A DNA stretch of 30,925 nt from a virus, in the IMG/VR virus record IMGVR_UViG_3300049855_000530, positions 1 through 30,925 of that record; one strand, given 5' to 3'. Of the stretch, positions 771 to 30,591 are shown piece by piece; positions within the stretch are counted from its first letter, which is position 1; each line of letters begins with the position of its first letter. Made by a program: the position numbers and the translations under genes. Below the pieces are notes generated by a model. That model searched no databases, was not told the DNA's origin, and saw nothing but the letters and a program-made list of their open reading frames with translations.

Positions 771-1417
771 TGAACCTATTTAGCACCGCCCCCACGCCCC
801 GCAACGGGCAAAATTTCCGCATATTAATCGCGTGCGAAGAATCCCAAACGGTATGCAAAGCGTTCCGGGCAAAGGGCTTCGAGGCTTATTCCTGCGATAT
901 TTTGCCGTGTTCGGGAGGCCGGCCGGAATGGCACATACAAGGCGATGCCCTGGAAATTGCCTATAATCCGTCGTATGCCTGGGATGTGATGATTGCTTTT
1001 CCACCATGTACGCACCTGGCGGTAAGCGGCGCGCGCTGGTTCAAAGAGGGCGTAAAGCCTTATTCGCTGCAAGAAGAAGGGGCTGCGTTTTTCATGGCTA
1101 TCGCGAACGCCCCGATCGGGATGATAGCGATAGAAAATCCTATATGCGTGATGAGCACAAAATATAGGAAACCCGACCAGATAATACACCCCTGGCAATT
1201 CGGCCACCCGGAACAGAAAAAGACCTGCCTATGGTTGAAAAACCTGCCTTTGATCGTGCCGACGAAAAACGTCCGCAAACACATGATGACGTTGCCGTTG
1301 AAAGAACGGACGCGGATCCACTGGCTTGGTTCAGGGAAATCCAAAGAAAGGAGCATCACGTTTTCAGGTATCGCGGAGGCCATGGCCGAGCAGTGGGGCA
1401 AATTTTTAACGCTTTAA
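767..1417 (+). CDS. Cytosine-C5 DNA methyltransferase-like protein (compact phage type)
   Basis: This 216-residue protein resembles compact phage cytosine-C5 methyltransferases, which transfer a methyl group from S-adenosylmethionine to C5 of cytosine in DNA. Seen: an N-terminal cofactor-site-like strand ILIACEESQTV (about 19-29), YSCDI (41-45), FPPCTHL (78-84) with the Pro-Cys pair expected for motif IV, and IENP (122-125) in the place of the Glu-Asn motif VI. It is shorter than restriction-type enzymes and has no obvious separate target-recognition domain, so its specificity and activity are uncertain. The start overlaps the upstream stop (ATGATG; a second ATG lies at 770). It probably modifies phage DNA as protection against host nucleases. 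A related modification activity on nucleotides cannot be excluded. Confidence 0.7.
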   Translation: MMNLFSTAPTPRNGQNFRILIACEESQTVCKAFRAKGFEAYSCDILPCSGGRPEWHIQGDALEIAYNPSYAWDVMIAFPPCTHLAVSGARWFKEGVKPYSLQEEGAAFFMAIANAPIGMIAIENPICVMSTKYRKPDQIIHPWQFGHPEQKKTCLWLKNLPLIVPTKNVRKHMMTLPLKERTRIHWLGSGKSKERSITFSGIAEAMAEQWGKFLTL

Positions 1418-1437
1418 ACACAAAAGGAGGCCAAACA

Positions 1438-2292
1438 ATGAAGACTATAAACAGCCTTAGCGGTGGCAAAACGAGCAGCTACCTTGCCGCGAATTACCCT
1501 GCCGACATTGAAATATTCGCCCTTTGTTGCATCGACGATCACAACGCGGGCAAAGGGATAGACCCCGCAATCCGTCGCGCGGTATCGGAACGCTTGGAAA
1601 AGAACAGCCCCGGATTCGGGGAGTTCCGGGCTACCAGCGAACACCCTAGCATCTTGCGCACGGTGCTGGATTTGGAACAGCATATAGGGCGGGAAATAGT
1701 TTGGGTAAGGGGGGATAGTTGGGAAGCCATGATAGCGAAAAAGAAATATTTGCCGAACCAGCAGACCCGTTTTTGCACGTCCGTTTTGAAAATCGAGCCT
1801 ATCTTCAAATATCTGTTTTTGCGCGGCATATTGCCCGCTAGGATGCGCATAGGGTTCAGGTACGACGAAATGGAAAGGGCGGAACGGCAAAGCGTGGAGC
1901 AGCACTACAAATACGCCAGCTGTTCGCAGATATACGACAGCGGGATAACCCGAACACGTTGGGAAACCTTTGAAAATTGGCGGGAGCTTGAATATCCGCT
2001 AATCGAAAACCGCATAGGCCACTACCAAGTGCAGCAGTATTGGAAACGCCAAAACATCGTTTTTGCCGATGACTCGAACTGCCAGTTTTGCTTTTGGAAA
2101 AACGCGGCTCAGCACGCAAAAAATTTTGAAGACGCGCCGAATATAATGCGGTGGGCAGGCGTGCAGGAGGTTTGCGCCGACCAGCGGTTCAAAAAAGAAC
2201 AATCGCTTTTTGAAGCCCAAAGGATAGGCATACAGGCCGACTTCGGCTTCGGTGGCGGCAGCGGTTGCCAAGCCGGGTTTTGCACCGATTAA
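1438..2292 (+). CDS. PP-loop PAPS-reductase-like protein
   Basis: This 284-residue protein belongs to the adenine nucleotide alpha-hydrolase (PP-loop) fold, as in PAPS reductases. Seen: a PP-loop-like SGGKTSS near the N terminus (8-14), RFCT (111-114), a CxxC pair (C215, C218) and two C-terminal cysteines (C277, C282) that could bind metal. Such proteins are frequent in phages; their substrate is mostly unknown, and roles in sulfur transfer or nucleic-acid modification are proposed by analogy. The start was placed at the ATG at 1438 because a strong AAAAGGAGG lies at 1422-1430, unusual for this genome. The reading frame is open upstream, but that stretch overlaps the methyltransferase gene. 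It is the last gene before the terminator at 2298. Confidence 0.7.
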   Translation: MKTINSLSGGKTSSYLAANYPADIEIFALCCIDDHNAGKGIDPAIRRAVSERLEKNSPGFGEFRATSEHPSILRTVLDLEQHIGREIVWVRGDSWEAMIAKKKYLPNQQTRFCTSVLKIEPIFKYLFLRGILPARMRIGFRYDEMERAERQSVEQHYKYASCSQIYDSGITRTRWETFENWRELEYPLIENRIGHYQVQQYWKRQNIVFADDSNCQFCFWKNAAQHAKNFEDAPNIMRWAGVQEVCADQRFKKEQSLFEAQRIGIQADFGFGGGSGCQAGFCTD

Positions 2293-4032: not shown

Positions 4033-4419
4033 ATGGTAGCAATAGACTGGGAAAAAGTATCCGAATGGCTGGAGGCCGGAGCGGATGGTACGGATGTAGC
4101 GGCGGCGCTAGGGATACACCCCGAAACCTTGTACGATCGGTGCAAAAAGGAGCAAAAAACCGATTTTTCCGTTTATCGGGCGCAAAAAAGGGCGGTAGGC
4201 ATGAATTCTTTGCGGGTTGCTCGGTACGAACTCGCTACCAAGGACAAGAACCCGACCATGATGATATGGCTTTCCAAGCAGATGCTTGGGGAAACAGACA
4301 AGCCGGGTATCGTCGCGGAAACCGATCGGACTTATCAAGTGGAAATAATCACGGCAAACAATGCGGATACAATCGACGGCGAACTTTCGGGAGATAGAAA
4401 AAGCCTACCAATCGGGTAA
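4033..4419 (+). CDS. terS: Terminase small subunit
   Basis: This 128-residue protein is the likely DNA-recognition subunit of the packaging motor. Seen: an N-terminal helix-turn-helix (about residues 19-40, with ALGIHPETLYDRC), followed by a segment resembling other small terminases (NPTMMIWLSKQMLGE). The identification rests mainly on the HTH plus position: the large terminase starts 59 bases before this gene ends. The overlap is long, so the C-terminal tail of this protein and the first 20 residues of the large subunit are encoded by the same DNA. Confidence 0.8.
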   Translation: MVAIDWEKVSEWLEAGADGTDVAAALGIHPETLYDRCKKEQKTDFSVYRAQKRAVGMNSLRVARYELATKDKNPTMMIWLSKQMLGETDKPGIVAETDRTYQVEIITANNADTIDGELSGDRKSLPIG

Positions 4420-22418: not shown

Positions 22419-22451
22419 AAAAAGCCGCTACGGGGTTCGTGGCGGCTTTTT
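22418..22451. terminator. Terminator between converging operons
   Basis: GCCGCTACG (22424-22432) pairs with CGTGGCGGC (22438-22446), with one G-U pair on the plus strand, and T residues run to 22451. A run of A before the stem gives the minus strand a U tract too, so it can end both the plus-strand late operon and the minus-strand recombination operon, though it fits the plus strand better. Confidence 0.85.
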
Positions 22452-22454
22452 GCT

Positions 22455-23021
22455 TTAGTTGAACTTCATTCTTGTTATTTTTATTTCAGTACCGTCGCGG
22501 CTTAACTGTTTTGCTGCTTCGTTTAATACTTCGTCGGTTAGCGCGTCGTCTAGTGTATCCGGAAATAACCCCCTCGCGATTTTTCTTTCCATCGCAGCGT
22601 CGCGTTGTTTCTGCTCCAGCCACCGCCTGACCGCATCGGCGGTTTCAAAGGCGTTGATATATCCGGTAATCGGTTTGTAATTTAAGCCAATCACATCGTC
22701 CATGTGCGTTCCCGCAACTTTGAGCGCTTGGTAGGCGTTCGGCAGCGTGTCCGCGTCGATAAGCGCCTCAAAGTCTTTTTCTGTGCCTTTGATTTTCGCC
22801 ACAAAGAAATTATGGTCGATTAATCCGTGCAAATGGACATGATACTCGCTGATAAGTGTTTCGGCAACCGAAACAACCCTTACGTCTTTTCCCGCATCCG
22901 CTTCGGCCTCGTGCTGTGCCGCCAATGCTGCATGGTCGTAACCGCTGGCATATACTGCCCAAGTGCGGTTTTCGGGCTTGCCGCTTTTGTAGCCCCTTGT
23001 TTTAACATAGTAGTATTTCAT
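22455..23021 (-). CDS. Hypothetical protein at the end of the recombination operon
   Basis: This 188-residue protein is not recognised. Seen: an aromatic N-terminus (MKYYYVKTRGY), a central His-rich YHVHLHGLIDHNFF (about 60-73) that could bind metal, and a charged helical C-terminal half (about 125-188). It is the last gene of the minus-strand operon, and its start overlaps the stop of the resolvase-like gene as ATGA, so the two are probably translated together. A nuclease or regulatory role is not supported by any full motif. Confidence 0.6.
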   Translation of the reverse strand: MKYYYVKTRGYKSGKPENRTWAVYASGYDHAALAAQHEAEADAGKDVRVVSVAETLISEYHVHLHGLIDHNFFVAKIKGTEKDFEALIDADTLPNAYQALKVAGTHMDDVIGLNYKPITGYINAFETADAVRRWLEQKQRDAAMERKIARGLFPDTLDDALTDEVLNEAAKQLSRDGTEIKITRMKFN

Positions 23022-23527
23022 TTGATTCTGCTTTTAGCGTGAAATGCGAGTTTATAGGCATCGCGTTGATCCTGATTAGGTGATTTGTTGGCTTTTATGA
23101 ATGTGCAATGGAATCCGTTTATCTTTACATGAAGCCCAAATTCCTCGGCGGTCATTTTTTGCCCCTTTCGGAGTGGCGAAAGCCTTATGAGCGTCGCGTC
23201 GGGTGCAAACCTTTCTATAATATCCCCGCACAGCTTGGAAGCTGCTTGGTTCATTCCTACGTTGCGGCTTTTGCGGGCCGCAACGGCTTGGTTCCCTGAT
23301 TTATCGAAGGTGCAGTTTTGCATCGACGAATCTTCGATGCAATAAACCGTGGCTATCTCTACGTGCTGCGCGCGGCTCGCTTTTTCTTCGATCATATACT
23401 CGATAAAGTCGATATACTTGGCGAAACGGCGAAAAGATACCGTGATTTTCCCTGCAAACAGGCTTAACGCGCACAAAGCAAACCCGCCTTCCCTGAACGA
23501 CGGATCTATCCCTATCCAGCGCATCAT
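23018..23527 (-). CDS. RuvC-like Holliday junction resolvase
   Basis: This 169-residue protein has the RNase-H-like fold of RuvC resolvases, which cut four-way DNA junctions. Seen: GIDPS with the first catalytic Asp (D8), CIEDS with the second acid (E65), and a C-terminal QDQRDAY with D153 and D156 as the remaining acidic positions. Length matches phage-type RuvC proteins. A likely role is resolving branched DNA before packaging. Its start overlaps the stop of the 55-residue gene, and its stop overlaps the next start. Confidence 0.85.
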   Translation of the reverse strand: MMRWIGIDPSFREGGFALCALSLFAGKITVSFRRFAKYIDFIEYMIEEKASRAQHVEIATVYCIEDSSMQNCTFDKSGNQAVAARKSRNVGMNQAASKLCGDIIERFAPDATLIRLSPLRKGQKMTAEEFGLHVKINGFHCTFIKANKSPNQDQRDAYKLAFHAKSRIK

Positions 23528-23691
23528 CGCAGCTTTTTCAAAAACAGTTCGAGCGCCAACGCACAGGCGGTTTTAGGAGGCTCTTGCATGGCTTTTTCCA
23601 GCGCTTTCCATTCGTTTGCCGCAACAAGCGCGGCTTGGGTGATGCGCGGCGAATATTCCGCAGGCGCTTCGGGATCTTTTTCTGTTTTCAT
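23524..23691 (-). CDS. Small 55-residue protein coupled to exonuclease and resolvase
   Basis: The reading frame continues further upstream, but the ATG at 23691 overlaps the stop of the exonuclease gene as ATGA, giving a 55-residue protein. It is helical and charged (TQAALVAANEWKALEKAM). Its stop in turn overlaps the resolvase start. The perfect nesting between two recombination genes supports translation. Function is unknown; a small DNA-binding or partner protein fits. Confidence 0.55.
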   Translation of the reverse strand: MKTEKDPEAPAEYSPRITQAALVAANEWKALEKAMQEPPKTACALALELFLKKLR

Positions 23692-24509
23692 AGCTTGTTT
23701 TGGTTTTGGATGATTCCTTTTTTGATTCCCTCCAGTGCGAGCCTTCGGTATTTTTCCCTTCCTGCCGCCAATTCGTCGGCAGAAAACTCGTAACACCAAG
23801 CATACGGCGGCTTGGAAAGCAACCTGTTTGCGGCGATGTCGCCGATCAGCGCTTTTTGTAGAACCTGCGGGTTTGCGTAAGACACGACCAGCAGTGTAAA
23901 CGATTCCGCGCGGGCAACGTCCGAATAATATGCAGCTTGCAGGGCGAGGTCGTGGTTTTTAATGTCGCCTTCGAACGCGCCACGGTCGTATTTCGTGGTG
24001 CTTTTCAAGTCGATTATGGTTTTTGCATCTGGAAACCAATAATCGAGCTTGCATTTCGCCTTTATCGTTACGCCTTCAGAAATTTCCAGCTTGTTTCGAT
24101 AAATCTCTCTCTGCATTTTCATAAAGGCTGGCGGCTCGGGCGGTTTCCCTGCAACAATCGAAATAACCGCATCGTGCCACTTCCAATACGCATCGGGCAT
24201 CAGCCCTATTTCGCGGGCGGCTTGCTTAGCCCGCAACAACTGGAGCATTTCCCAGTCAGAAACCTGCGCCGCATCGAACAGTTGCGGCTCGGTAAAGAAC
24301 ATATCGAACATTGAACCCATCCGAAACACCGACTTAGGCGGATCTGTATGGTTTCCTTCACACCGCAACAAGTCGGAGCGGGAAATGTATTCGCGGTTTG
24401 AAAAGTAGCCCGTCCTATCGTCGTTTGCCGGCTTGGAAACCGCCACAAATTCCGTGGCGGTTTCTTTTGCTTGGGCGCGCAGGGCTTTTAGTTGCTCTAG
24501 CACTGTCAT
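23688..24509 (-). CDS. PD-(D/E)XK exonuclease, RecB/exodeoxyribonuclease VIII-like
   Basis: This 273-residue protein is a likely double-strand-specific DNA exonuclease of the recombination system. Seen: an N-terminal segment with ISRSDLLRCEGNHT (about 42-55), RMGSMFDMFF (63-72) where related enzymes carry a His-containing motif, KLDYWFP (154-160, D156) and the catalytic IIDLKST (165-171, D167 and K169), followed by QAAYYSDVA. It resembles the DUF3799/ExoVIII-like family. The usual His in the first motif is absent. The gene overlaps the next upstream gene by one base (TAATG). Confidence 0.8.
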   Translation of the reverse strand: MTVLEQLKALRAQAKETATEFVAVSKPANDDRTGYFSNREYISRSDLLRCEGNHTDPPKSVFRMGSMFDMFFTEPQLFDAAQVSDWEMLQLLRAKQAAREIGLMPDAYWKWHDAVISIVAGKPPEPPAFMKMQREIYRNKLEISEGVTIKAKCKLDYWFPDAKTIIDLKSTTKYDRGAFEGDIKNHDLALQAAYYSDVARAESFTLLVVSYANPQVLQKALIGDIAANRLLSKPPYAWCYEFSADELAAGREKYRRLALEGIKKGIIQNQNKL

Positions 24510-25111
24510 TATTTTACCTCCCCTGTTGTTTCGTCGATAACCTCGTCGATGTTGCGGAGCGGTAAAAAGCCTTCGTGTGCGTTCGGGTTTATCGTAAACA
24601 GATTGTCCATCAAGCCCAGTTCGTCGCTGGTGGCTTTTCGTAATGCAAACTCTACGATTCCGAACGCTTGCCCTTTCTTAGACTTTTCATTTCGGATAGA
24701 TATGCTCAAGGTGTTGGCCAATATACCGCCCTCAAGCAGTACGATCTGCATAGCTCTTTCGGCTGCGGCGCTAGATGTCGCGGAAAGGGTAAGGCAAGCA
24801 TATACGGTGTGCCCTTTAACGGTCGCTATCCCTATAAATTGCGAGAAGTCGCAAGGCGCGTCGTATGTTTCGGATAAGCGAATTTTCGGGATCGTGCGAA
24901 AACCGCACGCATGGAAAACAAGCGGCGTAGGTATCTTATTGTAATCTGTTATGCCGGGGCCAAGACGAAACGACGGCTGCGCTCCCTGCATATTGGTTCT
25001 GATATCGTAAGGCGAAGACGAAACCACAACGCCTTTCTTTTCGGTTTCCAGCAATATCGCCGGTATCGCGGATGTTTTTGGCGACGCGACCGCCAATGAT
25101 TCATTTTTCAT
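24509..25111 (-). CDS. Unknown protein in recombinase position next to exonuclease
   Basis: This 200-residue protein has no motif I recognise as RecT, Erf, Rad52 or an OB-fold protein. Seen: a beta-rich central region (about 60-165), including ERAMQIVLLEGGILANTLSI and QAFGIVEFALRKAT, and an acidic tail (about 180-200), a feature shared with many single-strand DNA-binding proteins. It is encoded directly before the PD-(D/E)XK exonuclease with a one-base overlap, where phages usually place a strand-annealing or single-strand-binding protein. That role is an inference from position and tail. Confidence 0.65.
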   Translation of the reverse strand: MKNESLAVASPKTSAIPAILLETEKKGVVVSSSPYDIRTNMQGAQPSFRLGPGITDYNKIPTPLVFHACGFRTIPKIRLSETYDAPCDFSQFIGIATVKGHTVYACLTLSATSSAAAERAMQIVLLEGGILANTLSISIRNEKSKKGQAFGIVEFALRKATSDELGLMDNLFTINPNAHEGFLPLRNIDEVIDETTGEVK

Positions 25112-25140
25112 AATAGAGATAGGTAAATGGTAATAGGAAA

Positions 25141-25689
25141 TTATTGCATGACTTCGCGGCGGCGAAGTTCATAATAGCATCTCATCGTTGCCTCGATGTC
25201 AGCCTTCGCATCGTGCGCGCCGCCAAAATCGTCATGGAACAAGTGTCGGTGCAGCTCTTGGAGGGTAGGCCATTTCGGCTTCCCATATTGCCCCGGCAAA
25301 TTGACATGGTACATGGATCCTTTCATGGTGCAAGCGGTGTTTGGGAACTGTACAGGCAATCCGCAGCGGGTAAATTCCTGCCCCAACTGATCGATGTCGA
25401 AGCTGATGTTATGCCCGACGATCATCTTTGATTCGTCGATTGCTTTCTTTACTTCCAGCATCACCTCAAGCAGCGGACGGCCTTCGGCTTCGGCTTTTTC
25501 TTTTGTGATGCCATGCGCTTCAAACGCCTTCGGGTGCATCTCCCAAACGCCTTCGGGCTTGATCAGGCTGCATTTGGTGATGCCTTTTTTAATCCACGCG
25601 ATTTGGACGATGCGGGCTTCTTTCCCGATTCCTGTGGTTTCGGTGTCAAAGAAGAAAATGTCTTTGGGCATTATAGGTTCTTGATTCAT
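25141..25689 (-). CDS. DEDDh 3'-5' exonuclease (DnaQ-like)
   Basis: This 182-residue protein has the three exonuclease motifs of the DnaQ family: FDTETTG (14-20), GHNISFDIDQL (92-102) and AHDAKADIEAT (158-168). It hydrolyses DNA or RNA from the 3' end, and here may proofread or trim ends in phage replication and recombination. It is preceded by the leader AAACAACTATCAAAATG, also found before the gene at 26028. An in-frame ATG six codons later is a possible alternative start. Confidence 0.9.
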   Translation of the reverse strand: MNQEPIMPKDIFFFDTETTGIGKEARIVQIAWIKKGITKCSLIKPEGVWEMHPKAFEAHGITKEKAEAEGRPLLEVMLEVKKAIDESKMIVGHNISFDIDQLGQEFTRCGLPVQFPNTACTMKGSMYHVNLPGQYGKPKWPTLQELHRHLFHDDFGGAHDAKADIEATMRCYYELRRREVMQ

Positions 25690-25703
25690 TTTGATAGTTG
25701 TTT
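25687..25703 (-). repeat. Repeated translation leader, copy 1
   Basis: The 17 bases AAACAACTATCAAAATG, including the start codon, precede the DEDDh exonuclease gene and occur again before the gene at 26028. A nearby TTTTGGTTACG (plus-strand reading) is also shared. This may be a ribosome-loading leader of the A-rich Bacteroidetes type. Confidence 0.7.
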
Positions 25704-25719
25704 GTTTTGACGGTTTTGG

Positions 25720-26028
25720 TTACGAGAAAAAAACGGGGCGCTCTTGCATCCAGCGCCAAACGGCTTCGTTTATCCAAACCTCTGCCGCCCCCGGCTCCAG
25801 GTGCGAATAACCGTTTTCGGCCAGTATGGCGGCAGCTTGCTCTTCCGCGTCCGCACCTTCTATGATGTATCCATCCGACGTAAAAACAATTCCGTCCGCG
25901 ATTGCAGGGATATTGATTGCATTGCCGACAAGTTCGGCTGCATAGCCATCTATATCATGCCCGATTGTGTTGTAGCGCGGATCAGATGCCTCGGCCTCGA
26001 TGATTTCCGCTAGTTTGGTTCCGTTCAT
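25720..26028 (-). CDS. Hypothetical acidic protein, first gene of the recombination operon
   Basis: This 102-residue acidic protein is not recognised. Seen: helical ends, a central ADGIVFTSDGYIIEGADAEE turn-rich part (about 43-62), and an aromatic C-terminus (EVWINEAVWRWMQERPVFF). It is the first gene after the outward promoter at 26061-26101, about 30 bases from the predicted transcription start, so it is probably made early and in quantity. A small host-takeover or DNA-mimic role could be imagined for an acidic early protein, but nothing shows it. Confidence 0.6.
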   Translation of the reverse strand: MNGTKLAEIIEAEASDPRYNTIGHDIDGYAAELVGNAINIPAIADGIVFTSDGYIIEGADAEEQAAAILAENGYSHLEPGAAEVWINEAVWRWMQERPVFFS

Positions 26029-26042
26029 TTTGATAGTTGTTT
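26026..26042 (-). repeat. Repeated translation leader, copy 2
   Basis: Second copy of AAACAACTATCAAAATG, directly before the first gene of the minus-strand operon, identical to the copy at 25687-25703. Confidence 0.7.
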
Positions 26043-26060
26043 TGGTTACGTTTATTTGAA

Positions 26061-26101
26061 CAATACAAAAATATGCAAAAGAAAAGTTTAAAACAATATT
26101 T
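26061..26101 (-). promoter_or_regulatory. Outward promoter/operator element, copy 1, drives the minus-strand operon
   Basis: Read on the minus strand: TTG (26096-26094), 20 bases, then TATTTTTG (26073-26066), a full Bacteroidetes-type promoter. The whole 41-bp stretch matches 27962-28002 in inverted orientation at 40 of 41 positions, with 36 contiguous. The spacer contains GTTTTAAAC, a possible protein-binding palindrome. Transcription would begin near 26059. Confidence 0.8.
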
Positions 26102-26155
26102 TGCTTAAATATATTTTTCGGTGTGTTTTGCTTATATATAGCGTGTTTTGCTTAT
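26099..26155 (+). repeat. Three TTTTGCTTA direct repeats (possible operators)
   Basis: TTTTGCTTA occurs at 26099-26107, 26126-26134 and 26146-26154; the last two are within a longer identical GTGTTTTGCTTAT and are spaced by exactly 20 bases, about two helix turns. They lie between the divergent promoters and overlap the promoter of the small HTH gene, which is consistent with operator sites. Confidence 0.55.
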
Positions 26156-26160
26156 GTTTG
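26127..26160 (+). promoter_or_regulatory. Promoter of the excisionase-like HTH gene
   Basis: TTTG (26127-26130), 22 bases, then TATGTTTG (26153-26160) fits the Bacteroidetes promoter form with a slightly long spacer. The start codon follows 22 bases later. Two of the TTTTGCTTA repeats overlap it. Confidence 0.55.
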
Positions 26161-26182
26161 CATTAAACCAAACACTAAAACA

Positions 26183-26356
26183 ATGAAAGAGAAAGAAAAT
26201 GAAACGTACTACACCACGCAGCAAGTAGCTGCGAAGCTAAATATAGGCATAGCTACGGTACAGAAACACATCCGCGAGGGCCACATTAAAACGGTCAGGC
26301 CGCTGGGATTGACCAGAGTCGCGCAAAGCGAAATCGACCGCCTTCTGGGGCAATAA
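26183..26356 (+). CDS. Small excisionase/MerR-like helix-turn-helix protein
   Basis: This 57-residue protein is a single winged or simple HTH domain: YYTTQQVAAKLNIGIATVQK (about 9-28) and the typical end REGHIKTVRPLGLTRVAQSE (about 31-50). It matches the excisionase/MerR-type HTH family in length and pattern. ATG 26183 was chosen because an upstream in-frame ATG at 26123 lies in the promoter and repeats. No integrase is present, so it is more likely a transcription regulator, perhaps of the repeats upstream, than a recombination directionality factor. Confidence 0.75.
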   Translation: MKEKENETYYTTQQVAAKLNIGIATVQKHIREGHIKTVRPLGLTRVAQSEIDRLLGQ

Positions 26357-26385
26357 AAAAAGCCGCTCCCGAAACGGGGCGGCTT
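26357..26385. terminator. Terminator-like hairpin after the HTH gene
   Basis: AGCCGCTCCCG (26361-26371) pairs with CGGGGCGGCT (26375-26384) with one bulged T and an AAA loop. Only three T follow on the plus strand, but the A run before the stem gives seven U on the minus strand. It can end the HTH transcript weakly or stop minus-strand transcripts coming from the island. Confidence 0.6.
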
Positions 26386-26422
26386 TAACGGTTACATTTA
26401 GAAGCTTTATTTACTTTTTATT

Positions 26423-27901
26423 ATGCGCAAGATACTATTTTTAATGCTCCCCGTCAATTTTTCGGGCAGCATCTACTCAAAAGCCGCCACGGCGATATGT
26501 TTCCCAATCATAGCCGCCTGTTTTGCGGCATCCATCTGGTCAAACATGAAAGGTGTCGAGGTTCTTTTTGTGTCCGCTCCGGTGCCAGCGATAGATGCGG
26601 CCAAGACTGCAGTATGCTTCATTGATCCCTTAGCTTGGATGGCGTTTGTTCTTGCGATCGTTTCGGCGATCGCTTTCAGGAAACTTGAAACGTCTGAATC
26701 CAGTTTTCAAGGACTGGACGTGAAATCTTATAAGCGCCGATCACTGCTCGCGGCGACGATATTCGCAGCTATATGCGTATCGCTCACCTTCGCATCTTAT
26801 CGGCTTTCAGATGCGGGCGGGCAGGCCGGAGCGGGCGCTTATATAGACGAAAAGCACAAGCCCGAAGCGCTTGCAGGTATAGTGGACAAGCGCTTGCGGG
26901 CACTTAACGACGAAAAGCGGGCGCTTGCGGGCGCTTATGCCGACGTGCTTGCGGAGCTGAAAAGCGCACGGGCGGCAGCGGAAAAGACGGAAGCCGCGAC
27001 GGCGGGATGGGCTAGAAATGGCGAAAAGAACTGGGCGGATTACGCCAAAAACCAAGCTGCCGCGAAGGCGAAAAGCGAAGCCACGGCGAAAATAGAGGCC
27101 GTTCGGGCAGCAATCGCGGCAAAAGAATCAATCGCCGAGCGGGCGCACAACGACGCGCTCGAAGCGGAAAAACGGGCGCACGGGCAACAATCGGCGAAGC
27201 ACGAGCAACTTTCGGAAAGCGCGCGGGCGGCAATGGAAATAGCGGTAAGCTGCTGGACATTCGTAGGACTTGCGGCACAGGCGATCGCTTGCGCGCTTAC
27301 GTTCGGGCAATACGAATCGGTGGCATATTCGCTGCTTGTATATGAAATGAAAGAGCGCGCGGGCAACGCGAAAGAGATAGACAAGCAGCTGCTTGCTTTG
27401 TCGGCGGGTGCGCAAGCGGGCACACAAGCGGGTGCGCGGGCAATAGAAAACAGGCGCACAATCTATTTAAGGCGCGGGAACGGCGAACCGCCCGCGCGCT
27501 TGGATGCGGCCAAGGAAACGGTTGCTGTACAGGAAAGCGAACCGCCCGCGCGCCCGCAACAAGAACCGCAAGCACCCGTGGCGATACAGCAAGCACCCGC
27601 TCCAGTGCCCGTTATTGTCGAGCAAGCACCCGCAAGCGAAGAAGAAGAAGCGTTACGGGTGCTTGGATTGAACGGGCAAGGCATAAGGCTCGAATGGATC
27701 AGGATGTGGCGCGTCGCCTTGGCCGATCCTGGCCTTTTGGCGAAATCAAGAGATAACCCGGACGGAATGTCCAAGAAAGAAATCGCCTTAAAGTACGGAT
27801 GCGGTGAAACGCACATAGATAACCTTCGCCGATGCAGAAAGATAATCACCGACTATGCAGGATCAGAAGCCGCCTTTCTTGATGCGATACAAAAGATATA
27901 A
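26423..27901 (+). CDS. Four-pass membrane protein with coiled coil and C-terminal helix-turn-helix
   Basis: This 492-residue protein is not recognised as a known family. Seen: three hydrophobic segments (about 21-40, 64-85, 107-125), a long Ala/Glu/Lys-rich coiled coil (about 140-270), a fourth hydrophobic segment (272-294), a Pro/Ala/Gln-rich linker (about 355-405) and a C-terminal segment with a helix-turn-helix pattern, MSKKEIALKYGCGETHIDNL (449-468). An even number of passes would leave both ends in the cytoplasm, so the HTH could reach DNA. It lies alone between the two inverted promoter elements and ends at a strong terminator. A role in tethering DNA or a complex to the membrane is an inference. 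Confidence 0.65.
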   Translation: MRKILFLMLPVNFSGSIYSKAATAICFPIIAACFAASIWSNMKGVEVLFVSAPVPAIDAAKTAVCFIDPLAWMAFVLAIVSAIAFRKLETSESSFQGLDVKSYKRRSLLAATIFAAICVSLTFASYRLSDAGGQAGAGAYIDEKHKPEALAGIVDKRLRALNDEKRALAGAYADVLAELKSARAAAEKTEAATAGWARNGEKNWADYAKNQAAAKAKSEATAKIEAVRAAIAAKESIAERAHNDALEAEKRAHGQQSAKHEQLSESARAAMEIAVSCWTFVGLAAQAIACALTFGQYESVAYSLLVYEMKERAGNAKEIDKQLLALSAGAQAGTQAGARAIENRRTIYLRRGNGEPPARLDAAKETVAVQESEPPARPQQEPQAPVAIQQAPAPVPVIVEQAPASEEEEALRVLGLNGQGIRLEWIRMWRVALADPGLLAKSRDNPDGMSKKEIALKYGCGETHIDNLRRCRKIITDYAGSEAAFLDAIQKI

Positions 27902-27905
27902 ACCT

Positions 27906-27938
27906 AGCCCGCTCCTATACAGGCAGCGGGCTTTTTTT
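27906..27938 (+). terminator. Intrinsic terminator after the membrane-HTH gene
   Basis: AGCCCGCT (27906-27913) pairs perfectly with AGCGGGCT (27925-27932), with CCT/AGG pairing further inside, followed by T residues to 27938. It isolates the island from the promoter at 27962. Confidence 0.9.
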
Positions 27939-27961
27939 GCGCCTAAAAATATATTTGTGTG

Positions 27962-28002
27962 AAATATTGTTTTAAACTTTTCTTTTGCATATTTTTGCAT
28001 TG
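27962..28002 (+). promoter_or_regulatory. Outward promoter/operator element, copy 2, drives the ATPase operon
   Basis: TTG (27967-27969), 20 bases, then TATTTTTG (27990-27997) gives a complete Bacteroidetes-type promoter. It is the inverted copy of 26061-26101. Transcription would begin near 28004, leaving a leader of about 48 bases before the ATG at 28052. Confidence 0.8.
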
Positions 28003-28051
28003 TCGTTAAAGTAGCGGCAATCAAATACAAACCTCCAAAACAAACAACATT

Positions 28052-29143
28052 ATGAAAATCTCCAAAATCAGGCTAGAAAACATCGGCCTTATGCCTTCGC
28101 AGGAAATTGAAATCAAAGGCAACCACGTCCTTGTAACAGGACCCAACGCCCAAGGCAAAACCACTTTCGTCAAAGCATTCGAGCGCATCTGCACACCCTA
28201 CGGAAAACCCGGCTCCATGCCAGCCGACATCGTGGCGAACGGCGAAGCCCGAGGCGTAGCATCATTCTTTCTTGAAGACGGCACGAGAATAGAGTGGTCT
28301 AAATGGGAAAACGAACCCGAGCCTGTCGTGGTGATCACATACCCGGACGGCAAACAAAAATCAAAGCCCGCTCAAAAGCTGCTCGCGGAACTTTGCGGCC
28401 AAAGGGTTGATTTAAACAAAGAGTTCATCAGCACGACACCATCAGACCGCAAAGCCTTCATTGCCCGCATCAGCGGCATCGACTTGGAAAAACATGACAA
28501 GATGATCAAGGTAGCTGAAGATAACCGAACGTTGGTAAAACGCGAAGCGGATACGGCCAAAAAACGCGCGGAAGGCTACAATAGCACGATTCCCGCAATC
28601 CCCGTATCGGTAACGGAATTACAGGCGGCGCACGATGCGATCGTGGCACAGCAAGCGAAGCAAGAAAAAGAAAGCAGTGCGCTTGCTTCTTTGGAGCAAA
28701 CACTCGAAAGCAACAAAAAAGCGGGCAGCGACATGGTGCAACGAATTGATGCAATGAAAGCAGAAATTGCAGCGCTAGAGGAAAGGGTGCAAGACGTGAA
28801 AAAAGAAAACGGGGTGCTCCTAAAAAGGATTGCGGACGGGAAAGCGCACATCGAAGCGAACCACGAAGACTTGGCCACTAAATTAGAATCCGCAAGCAAG
28901 GCCATATCCGAGGCGGCAAACACAAACATCAAAATCGCTTTGAACGCCAAGGCAAAAGCCGACTACGATGCTTGGATAGCATCCAAAAAACAGGTAGAAG
29001 ATGCGGAAGCCGCCGTGGAAAAAGCAAGGGCCGCAAAAATAGAGGAAGCCTTTCTATCAGCGAAGAAGGCGAGCTTGTTTTCACGGACGCTCGCGGAACT
29101 ACGCTATCAATCGAATCAGCCAACGAAGCGGCCAAAACTATAA
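28052..29143 (+). CDS. SMC/RecF-like ATPase, N-terminal part (frame interrupted)
   Basis: This 363-residue reading frame carries the N-terminal half of an SMC/RecF/Rad50-like ATPase used in DNA metabolism. Seen: the opening KISKIRLENIGLM, Walker A GPNAQGKTT (30-38), and a coiled coil (about 185-330). The last 30 residues (SLFSRTLAELRYQSNQPTKR) do not fit, while the missing C-terminal lobe is encoded in the -1 frame, overlapping at 28972-29322. The frame therefore breaks at about 29035-29060. Either the ATPase is made by -1 frameshifting, or the gene carries a one-base indel, or the sequence has an error. The upstream part of the gene shows no other damage. Confidence 0.75.
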   Translation: MKISKIRLENIGLMPSQEIEIKGNHVLVTGPNAQGKTTFVKAFERICTPYGKPGSMPADIVANGEARGVASFFLEDGTRIEWSKWENEPEPVVVITYPDGKQKSKPAQKLLAELCGQRVDLNKEFISTTPSDRKAFIARISGIDLEKHDKMIKVAEDNRTLVKREADTAKKRAEGYNSTIPAIPVSVTELQAAHDAIVAQQAKQEKESSALASLEQTLESNKKAGSDMVQRIDAMKAEIAALEERVQDVKKENGVLLKRIADGKAHIEANHEDLATKLESASKAISEAANTNIKIALNAKAKADYDAWIASKKQVEDAEAAVEKARAAKIEEAFLSAKKASLFSRTLAELRYQSNQPTKRPKL

Positions 29144-29322
29144 TCGCCCTAAAATGCAGCTTGCAAGTTGTAGGCTCTGTCAAGTGCGTAGCCTTAGAGG
29201 TTTCGCACCTAGACAAGGCTTCCCGCGCGGAGGTATTCGCTTGGGCCACGGCAAATGACCTGCAAATATTTGCCGAGCGCGTAACTGACGATGACGCGCT
29301 GCAAATCCAAATCTTATCCTAA
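28972..29322 (+). pseudogene. SMC/RecF-like ATPase, C-terminal lobe in the -1 frame
   Basis: From about 29040 this frame encodes LSISEEGELVFTD, a helix SANEAAKTIIALK, and VKCVALEVSHLDKAS, a Walker-B/D-loop-like segment of the C-terminal ATPase lobe, ending in a strand-helix pattern usual for phage SMC-like proteins. The first 30 residues after the ATG at 28972 are very basic and look like a shadow of the upstream frame, so independent translation from that ATG is unlikely. It continues the preceding gene by a -1 shift near a run of five A (29035-29039). Confidence 0.7.
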
Positions 29323-29324
29323 CC

Positions 29325-29693
29325 ATGAAGCAAAAGCAAGAAAAATCACCAGCAACCGTGGCCGCGATTGAGCGCCACGGTTCGATTTCGGCGCTGGTCA
29401 GGCTTTCGGGCTTGCCTAGGCGACGCATAGAAAGCCTAGACGACGAAGCGCTGGAAGCGCTGTCCATGTCGTTTCCTGCGAATCAAGAACGTATCACACA
29501 CGAGGAACGAGAAGCGGCGCAATCGGCTTTTCGGGCATCAGGAAAAACGCTTTGGGCGGTGGCAAGAGAATTAGGTTATGATACCCAGACCCGATACGCA
29601 TCATTGTACGTAGCCCTAAACCGTAGCCAGTGGCATAGCCGGCACTCGAAAAAGTTGTTCAAGCACCTTTTAAGCCCGAAACAAGATGAATAA
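29325..29693 (+). CDS. Small basic protein, possible DNA-binding
   Basis: This 122-residue basic protein is not recognised. Seen: two short helical segments with HTH-like spacing (ISALVRLSGLPRRRIESL, about 21-38; and TLWAVARELGYDTQTRYASL, about 75-94). It starts two bases after the ATPase C-terminal frame and its end overlaps the kinase start by eight bases. The location in a DNA-processing operon suggests a DNA-binding or regulatory partner. Confidence 0.6.
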   Translation: MKQKQEKSPATVAAIERHGSISALVRLSGLPRRRIESLDDEALEALSMSFPANQERITHEEREAAQSAFRASGKTLWAVARELGYDTQTRYASLYVALNRSQWHSRHSKKLFKHLLSPKQDE

Positions 29694-30108
29694 AAAGCTG
29701 ATGATAATAATGCGCGGCCTTCCCGGGAGCGGGAAAAGCACGCTGGCGAAAGAACTGGTAGGAGATACGGGCGTGATTTGCTCCAGCGACTTCTACATGA
29801 TCGGGAAGGACGGGGAATACAAATATGACCCAGATAGGCTTCCCGAAACGCACGCGGCCTGCCAGCGGGCAGCGGAAGCGGCTTGCAAGCATCAGATAAG
29901 CCCTGTGATTATCGACAACACGAACCTAAGCGACTGGAGCACCATCGCATATAAACAGATGGCGCATAGCTACGGATACGATGTCGAATACCAAGAACCT
30001 AAAACGCCTTGGGCAAAAGACCCGGCGATATGCGCCGAAAAATGCAAGCACGCGGTGCCCGAGGTTTCAATAAGAAAGATGCTCCAGTTTTGGGAAAAGC
30101 ATCTCTAG
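29686..30108 (+). CDS. P-loop polynucleotide-kinase-like protein
   Basis: This 140-residue protein is a P-loop kinase of the polynucleotide kinase/NEDD4-binding-protein-2-like group. Seen: Walker A GLPGSGKST (11-19), SSDFY (33-37) in the position of the acidic substrate-site residues, and VIIDNTNL (74-81) typical of this group. Such enzymes phosphorylate 5'-hydroxyl ends of nucleic acids; a repair or RNA-healing role fits, though other small-molecule or zeta-toxin-like substrates are possible. No phosphatase domain is attached. It overlaps the preceding gene by eight bases and is followed by a structured intergenic element. Confidence 0.8.
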   Translation: MNKKLMIIMRGLPGSGKSTLAKELVGDTGVICSSDFYMIGKDGEYKYDPDRLPETHAACQRAAEAACKHQISPVIIDNTNLSDWSTIAYKQMAHSYGYDVEYQEPKTPWAKDPAICAEKCKHAVPEVSIRKMLQFWEKHL

Positions 30109-30111
30109 CAT

Positions 30112-30202
30112 AGGCCCGCGCGAACGTGCCATGCCGCCCCGTTGATTGTTGGGATAAAAGGCGGCAAAGCGGCATGGGTTAATCTAGTAGCGCGGGTTTT
30201 TT
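30112..30202 (+). ncRNA. Two-stem structured element ending in a terminator
   Basis: In the 115-base gap after the kinase gene, AGGCCCGCGC (30112-30121) pairs with GCGCGGGTTT (30190-30199), partly through G-U pairs, and encloses a perfect CCATGCCGC (30129-30137)/GCGGCATGG (30169-30177) helix. T residues continue to 30202. The loop contains GGCGGC (30160-30165), which can instead pair with GCCGCC (30133-30138), an alternative fold excluding the main inner stem. It can act as a terminator; the size and alternative pairings are more than a terminator needs, so a small RNA or switch is possible. Confidence 0.55.
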
Positions 30203-30223
30203 CAAATCAAAACCAATAAAACC

Positions 30224-30560: not shown

Positions 30561-30591
30561 TTTGCTTTTTCGATAATTTTTGCTACATTTG
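30561..30591 (+). promoter_or_regulatory. Promoter of the replication operon
   Basis: TTTG (30561-30564), 19 bases, then TACATTTG (30584-30591) is a close match to the Bacteroidetes consensus. Transcription would begin near 30598, ahead of the leader described next. Confidence 0.75.

Follow-up and report, generated by a model that had tools for sequence, protein, structure and literature searches.

Two nearly identical promoter/operator elements face outward from either side of a two-gene island in an uncultured tailed phage, and we posit, with somewhat more belief than doubt, that they form a divergent early control region resembling the immunity region of phage lambda, in which one set of regulator(s) would govern both copies of a duplicated promoter/operator. 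The repeat pair itself is real and non-random. Promoter activity, regulator binding and joint control are suggested by the sequence identity of the arms, their promoter-like boxes and orientation, motif enrichment and gene content, and we infer from these a shared regulator site at both arms. Phage promoters that are repeated together with their operators are a known phenomenon, and other Bacteroidota phages also have conserved-spacer promoters; the region adds one more member to a class of phage control region already known and does not found a new kind of system. An earlier sequence-only reading of the site as a promoter/operator pair pointed in the right direction, and the region is functionally sensible.

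The window analyzed is the whole virus record (30,925 nt), a single contig with genes cut at both ends; thus, the record is nearly, not fully, complete. The tail-region proteins are 24–29% identical to those of Flavobacterium phage Fpv5, which, together with the Bacteroidota-type promoters described below, makes a bacterium of the Bacteroidota the most likely host. No close relatives of the phage were found in the collections searched, the best terminase relatives being 38% identical, and the protein-relative search returned one 29% relative in genome_contigs, in Erysipelothrix. The contig IMGVR_UViG_3300030385_000649 is a genuine distant relative with seven head and tail genes in common at 26–38% identity. 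The window also codes for a phosphoadenosine phosphosulfate reductase-like auxiliary gene (1231–2292, plus strand; PHROG 424, 4e-26), which adjoins a DNA methyltransferase gene.

The claim that positions 26061–26101 and 27962–28002 are reverse complements at 40 of 41 positions, 36 of them contiguous (26066–26101), proved exact. The inverted repeat is larger than first described, extending over 62 nt with 56 identical (Table 1). Sets of 20 first-order Markov sequences, matched in length, gave longest exact inverted matches of 13–16 nt with the composition of the window and of 17–20 nt with that of its AT-rich intergenic DNA; hence, the 36-nt exact match cannot be put down to chance. The similar stretch reaches from close to the predicted transcription start to some 25 bp beyond the −33 box on its upstream side; at either end it breaks off sharply, and it does not enter the leaders. 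Identity that covers a promoter from about its start site to an AT tract and then ends is what conserved regulatory DNA would show. Of the six mismatches between the arms, four sit at one place, which reads TTTTGCTTA in the left arm and TTTCACACA in the right, so that the two have a common core and one candidate operator sets them apart.

Bacteroidota sigma-A (sigma-ABfr) promoters display TTG and TANNTTTG boxes separated by an AT-rich spacer (PMC7366714, PMC9723704), with the spacers being variable among host promoters (PMC7366714). Four sites in the window have TTG near −33 and TANNTTTG near −7 at the expected distance of about 19–22 nt (observed spacing 19–22); all are intergenic and upstream of genes, and three lie in the two gaps flanking the island, where 0.1 would be expected. 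Two of them are the outward TTG-N20-TATTTTTG promoters that had been proposed for the arms, one being present in each (P_L, 26096 to 26066 on the minus strand; P_R, 27967 to 27997 on the plus strand), and both are predicted to be active promoters of the Bacteroidota sigma-A type. The others are predicted promoters of the HTH gene of the island and of a replication initiation gene. The HTH gene promoter was absent from the earlier account, as were the direct repeats and the extended −7 motif described below.

On a scan of the whole window the conserved spacer splits into two parts. One is a TTTTGC block found 0–1 base before the −7 box in all four predicted promoters. TTTTGC-N0-2-TANNTTTG has four matches in the window, all in intergenic promoters (0.065 expected), while the longer TTTTGC(A/T)TA has five in the 30.9 kb, all in the two intergenic gaps flanking the island (1.2 expected). 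In P_L, P_R and the HTH gene promoter this longer form runs right up to the −7 box; in the replication promoter TTTTGC lies one base closer. The other part, GTTTTAAAC, adjoins the −33 box and, with the AT tract upstream, is unique to P_L and P_R in the window, as is its degenerate form GTTT(A/T)AAAC, which has no further occurrence there. GTTTTAAAC is a short dyad with 4-bp arms that could be a by-product of recent promoter duplication. The LexA/SOS boxes of Bacteroidetes (CTAA-N5-TTAG and GGA-N5-TCC; PMC8565304) were rejected by eye as the identity of GTTT-T-AAAC, their spacing being different.

Table 1. Features of the divergent region and its flanking operons (positions in the window).
Feature	Position	Strand	Description
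Operon downstream of P_L	22455..26028	-	102-aa protein, DnaQ-like exonuclease, 200-aa protein, DUF3799/exonuclease VIII-like protein, Holliday-junction-resolvase-like protein
Left arm, putative promoter/operator P_L	26060..26121	-	Faces left; TTG 26096-26094, N20, TATTTTTG 26073-26066; GTTTTAAAC 26094-26086
Three direct repeats TTTTGCTTA, candidate operators	26099..26154	+	Starts at 26099, 26126, 26146
Predicted promoter of HTH gene	26128..26160	+	TTG-N22-TATGTTTG; TTTTGCTTATGTTTGCATT matches the P_R −7 region at 17/19
HTH_17/excisionase-family DNA-binding protein, 57 aa	26183..26356	+	Predicted fold resembles phage Xis and BldC; putative regulator
Strong hairpin between the island genes	26359..26386		T-run on minus strand; would stop leftward transcripts
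492-aa ORFan	26423..27901	+	4-5 hydrophobic segments; charged, Ala-rich and coiled-coil-like middle part; helices at the C-terminus HTH-like (low-confidence model)
Intrinsic terminator	27906..27938	+	-18.7 kcal/mol, then T7; just before P_R
Right arm, putative promoter/operator P_R	27942..28003	+	Faces right; TTG 27967-27969, N20, TATTTTTG 27990-27997; GTTTTAAAC 27969-27977
Operon downstream of P_R	28052..30108	+	AAA/RecF-SMC-like ATPase, polynucleotide-kinase-like protein
Fourth predicted promoter	30562..30591	+	TTTTGC beside −7 box; upstream of replication initiation gene (30716 onward)

The TTTTGCTTA site, present in the left arm only, is the first of three direct repeats; the other two copies stand in front of the HTH gene, and the series runs through that gene's own promoter. 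The encoded protein matches PF12728 (HTH_17; 39.6 bits against a cut-off of 27, E 6e-10, Pfam) and TIGR01764 (NCBIfam excise; 31.4 bits against a cut-off of 28.8, E 2e-7). The nearest structures in the PDB to its AlphaFold model (pLDDT 80) are phage Pukovnik Xis (4j2n) and BldC (6ama), with Foldseek probabilities of 1.0 and 0.99 and modest E-values of 0.02 and 0.04, respectively. Against the BldC family model NF033787 it scores 21.2 bits, short of the cut-off of 77, and its resemblance to BldC is confined to the predicted fold. Members of HTH_17 often act as excisionases, not as repressors. BldC itself binds direct repeats head to tail and regulates transcription (PMC5859096), and the Xis-like RdfS has been proposed to repress its own promoter (PMC11963761); these precedents make the island protein a natural, putative candidate for binding the direct repeats, which are 27 and 20 bp apart as compared to one turn apart in BldC sites. 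As the regulator of the region we put it forward tentatively.

The second island gene encodes a protein that is predicted to be membrane-anchored. Its C-terminal domain was modeled with a pLDDT of 71 and a best Foldseek E-value of 1.8, and hence we call it HTH-like only. Relatives of this protein, of the HTH protein and of a 582-aa tail-region protein were sought in IMG/VR and none were found. The terminator that follows the gene would insulate P_R from island transcripts.

This region is the sole divergence of major operons in the window, with recombination genes on one side and replication genes on the other. The DnaQ-like exonuclease of the left operon matches PHROG 192 (4e-37). Rightward, the kinase-like gene is followed by the replication initiation gene, which runs off the window end, and the window starts inside a gene for a DnaC-like helicase loader; thus, the early region on the right probably spans the record ends. 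The AAA gene is split between a frame at 28052–29143 (plus strand), corresponding to positions 3–323 of the 427 of PHROG 1499, and an overlapping frame at 28972–29322 (plus strand), corresponding to positions 352–418. The full-length protein seems to be interrupted by a frame change near 29050–29100, be it an assembly error, a mutation or a programmed frameshift. Two structured stretches were also noted: a strong hairpin terminator (22419–22451, −22.3 kcal/mol) between the convergent ends of the late and recombination operons, and long GC-rich complementary segments followed by a T-run in the intergenic stretch 30109–30223, a possible structured RNA or terminator before the replication region. 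The leaders at 25689–25702 and 26028–26041 (minus strand) and at 28029–28051 (plus strand) show gene starts sharing AACAACTATCAAAATGA and CAAAACAAACAACATTATG-type sequences, which resemble the A-rich translation signals of Bacteroidota; Kozak-like starts have been described in F. johnsoniae (PMC6847099). A further repeat (25697–25716/28029–28048) reflects this translation-leader similarity and was rejected as a part of the element.

We propose that a single phage early promoter with its operator is present twice, as P_L and P_R, the two copies pointing away from a small control cassette that lies between them. In each arm TTG-N20-TATTTTTG would be recognized by the host sigma-A RNA polymerase, with transcription running to the left through the exonuclease/recombination genes and to the right through those for the AAA ATPase and kinase, with the replication genes being reached via a further related promoter. 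The same regulator(s) would read both copies, keeping the spacer and upstream sequence identical and causing both early arms to switch together; the twin switches thus probably turn on the recombination and replication genes jointly. Candidate sites for such regulators are GTTTTAAAC, abutting the −33 box of P_L and P_R, and TTTTGC(A/T)TA at the −7 box. The 57-aa HTH_17 protein would be the likeliest reader of the TTTTGCTTA repeats and would autoregulate its own gene, while the copy of TTTTGCTTA in the left arm would give P_L one input that P_R lacks. A more elaborate and rather improbable version is a lambda-like bipartite switch, in which the twin outward promoter/operators are read by the small, Xis/BldC-like and possibly filament-forming protein and by the membrane-anchored protein through a C-terminal DNA-binding domain of its own, with P_L, by virtue of its extra TTTTGCTTA, answering the regulator differently from P_R.

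Searches of 2.9 million viral contigs in IMG/VR with exact 18-mers and degenerate patterns returned chance matches only, the element being otherwise absent. The 34 exact 18-mer matches include none with promoter boxes in register, and the 42 matches to a degenerate pattern of the promoter plus GTTTAAAACAA are not alike outside the fixed letters. The 18-mer match in the distant relative IMGVR_UViG_3300030385_000649 is likewise a chance one, lying inside the start of a coding gene (MEKFKTILKK). The wider search was for the phenomenon rather than the sequence, namely promoters of one phage with a common spacer, scored by spacer alignment against the shuffled maximum. Conserved-spacer promoters were recovered in Elizabethkingia phage TCUEAP2 (score 0.79, shuffled maximum 0.39) and UViG 3300002180_000040 (0.78, shuffled maximum 0.50). 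In the latter the pair is outward-facing and 1.66 kb apart around a helicase region, with the right promoter preceding a homologous AAA-protein operon. A weaker signal was seen in Parabacteroides PD691P6, Bacteroides BKO1-3 and Alistipes AS73P1, and none in Cellulophaga phi12:1, Flavobacterium Fpv5 and Tenacibaculum Gundel_1 (40 kb examined). A promoter half, TTGGTAATTAAAA, comprising the −33 box and the start of the spacer, is common to phages of Bacteroides, Alistipes and Elizabethkingia and is possibly a family-wide early promoter motif.

The main rival to a shared regulator is a recent inverted duplication of the promoter, for instance through entry of the island between once directly divergent operons. 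The near-complete identity over 62 nt does take in non-box bases, and in Cellulophaga phi12:1 the AAA and DnaQ-exonuclease operons are directly divergent across an 82-bp gap with no island. However, the arm differences are not scattered, being clustered in the single TTTTGCTTA site, the similarity stops near the start site, short of the leaders, and other phages hold conserved spacers in several dispersed promoters; on balance, we regard duplication without a common regulator as unlikely. It is also improbable that the conserved blocks are just an optimized strong host promoter, with an A/T-rich upstream element and an extended −7 region independently favored at each site and no phage regulator involved. 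TTTTGC does touch the −7 box in all four promoters like an extended −7 element and the upstream tract is AT-rich in the manner of an UP element, but P_L and P_R are identical across the full 20-nt spacer and its flanks, as against the variable spacers of host promoters (PMC7366714), and the other two promoters of the phage share the conserved sequence only in part.

The sequence-only reading had further suggested that the island might invert. Recombination between the 62-nt repeats would flip it with both outward promoters intact, the geometry permits this, and the left operon encodes recombination-type nucleases; nevertheless, no serine or tyrosine recombinase that might act on the repeats was found among the window ORFs, and flipping offers no obvious gain. 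A host or unsequenced recombinase may act on the repeats, but with the record being a single contig, and with two jointly controlled divergent promoters accounting in full for the inverted layout, the suggestion found no support and inversion is highly improbable. A gene at 4033–4419 was rejected as an invertase: its weak match covers the HTH region only and extends to terminase small subunits, and the gene adjoins that of the large subunit. Equally hard to credit is a mobile element of the transposon or MITE type with promoters in its ends. Inverted repeats do flank the island, and its two proteins lack relatives in the viral collection; however, neither a transposase in or beside the island nor a target-site duplication flanking the arms was found, the ends of the island fall on promoters, and the searches of IMG/VR gave no further copy of the arms. 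Neither an empty nor an inverted site is at hand to support either of these last two explanations.

Early gene control in Bacteroidota phages is little described in the literature that we searched. If the proposal of a jointly regulated promoter pair is true, it provides a control region that is small and open to test, suggests that others may be found simply by looking for promoters in one phage with a common spacer, and would be an instance of a lambda-like layout attained with no repressor of the lambda type.

Several known systems bear comparison with the region. Like Bacteroidota sigma-A promoters, those of the phage have TTG and TANNTTTG boxes and an AT-rich spacer; what sets them apart is a 20-nt spacer that does not differ between two copies and a TTTTGC that keeps its place beside the −7 box in four promoters. 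The repeated promoters of Elizabethkingia TCUEAP2 and UViG 3300002180_000040, and TTGGTAATTAAAA in BKO1-3 and AS73P1, similarly have spacer and upstream sequence common to several promoters per phage, although their sequences are unrelated to those of the window and their spacers align with scores of 0.4–0.8 as against 1.0 here. The island protein shares HTH_17 and TIGR01764 matches and a predicted resemblance to 4j2n and 6ama with the winged HTH proteins BldC and phage Xis, but the repeat spacing differs from the 9–10 bp of BldC and no integrase partner was found in the window.

In the lambda immunity region, the near-identical outward PL/OL and PR/OR flank cI and rexAB, the left operon carries recombination and the right operon replication functions, and the cassette holds a membrane protein gene. 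The window contains no CI-like repressor; in place of a CI-type (lambda repressor-like or S24) one, the genes of the HTH_17 protein and the ORFan are all that lie between the arms; the PHROG scans of the window ORFs, with genes cut at both window ends, found no integrase; and each arm has one promoter core in contrast to the three tandem operators of lambda. Because the CI-type repressor is missing and no integrase was seen in the window, we describe the region, which may work in the same way, as like the lambda immunity region rather than as one, with its candidate regulator being a 57-aa Xis/BldC-like HTH protein. The likeness lies in the twin near-identical outward promoters with putative operators around control genes, the placing of recombination and replication genes on opposite arms, and the gene for a predicted membrane protein within the cassette.
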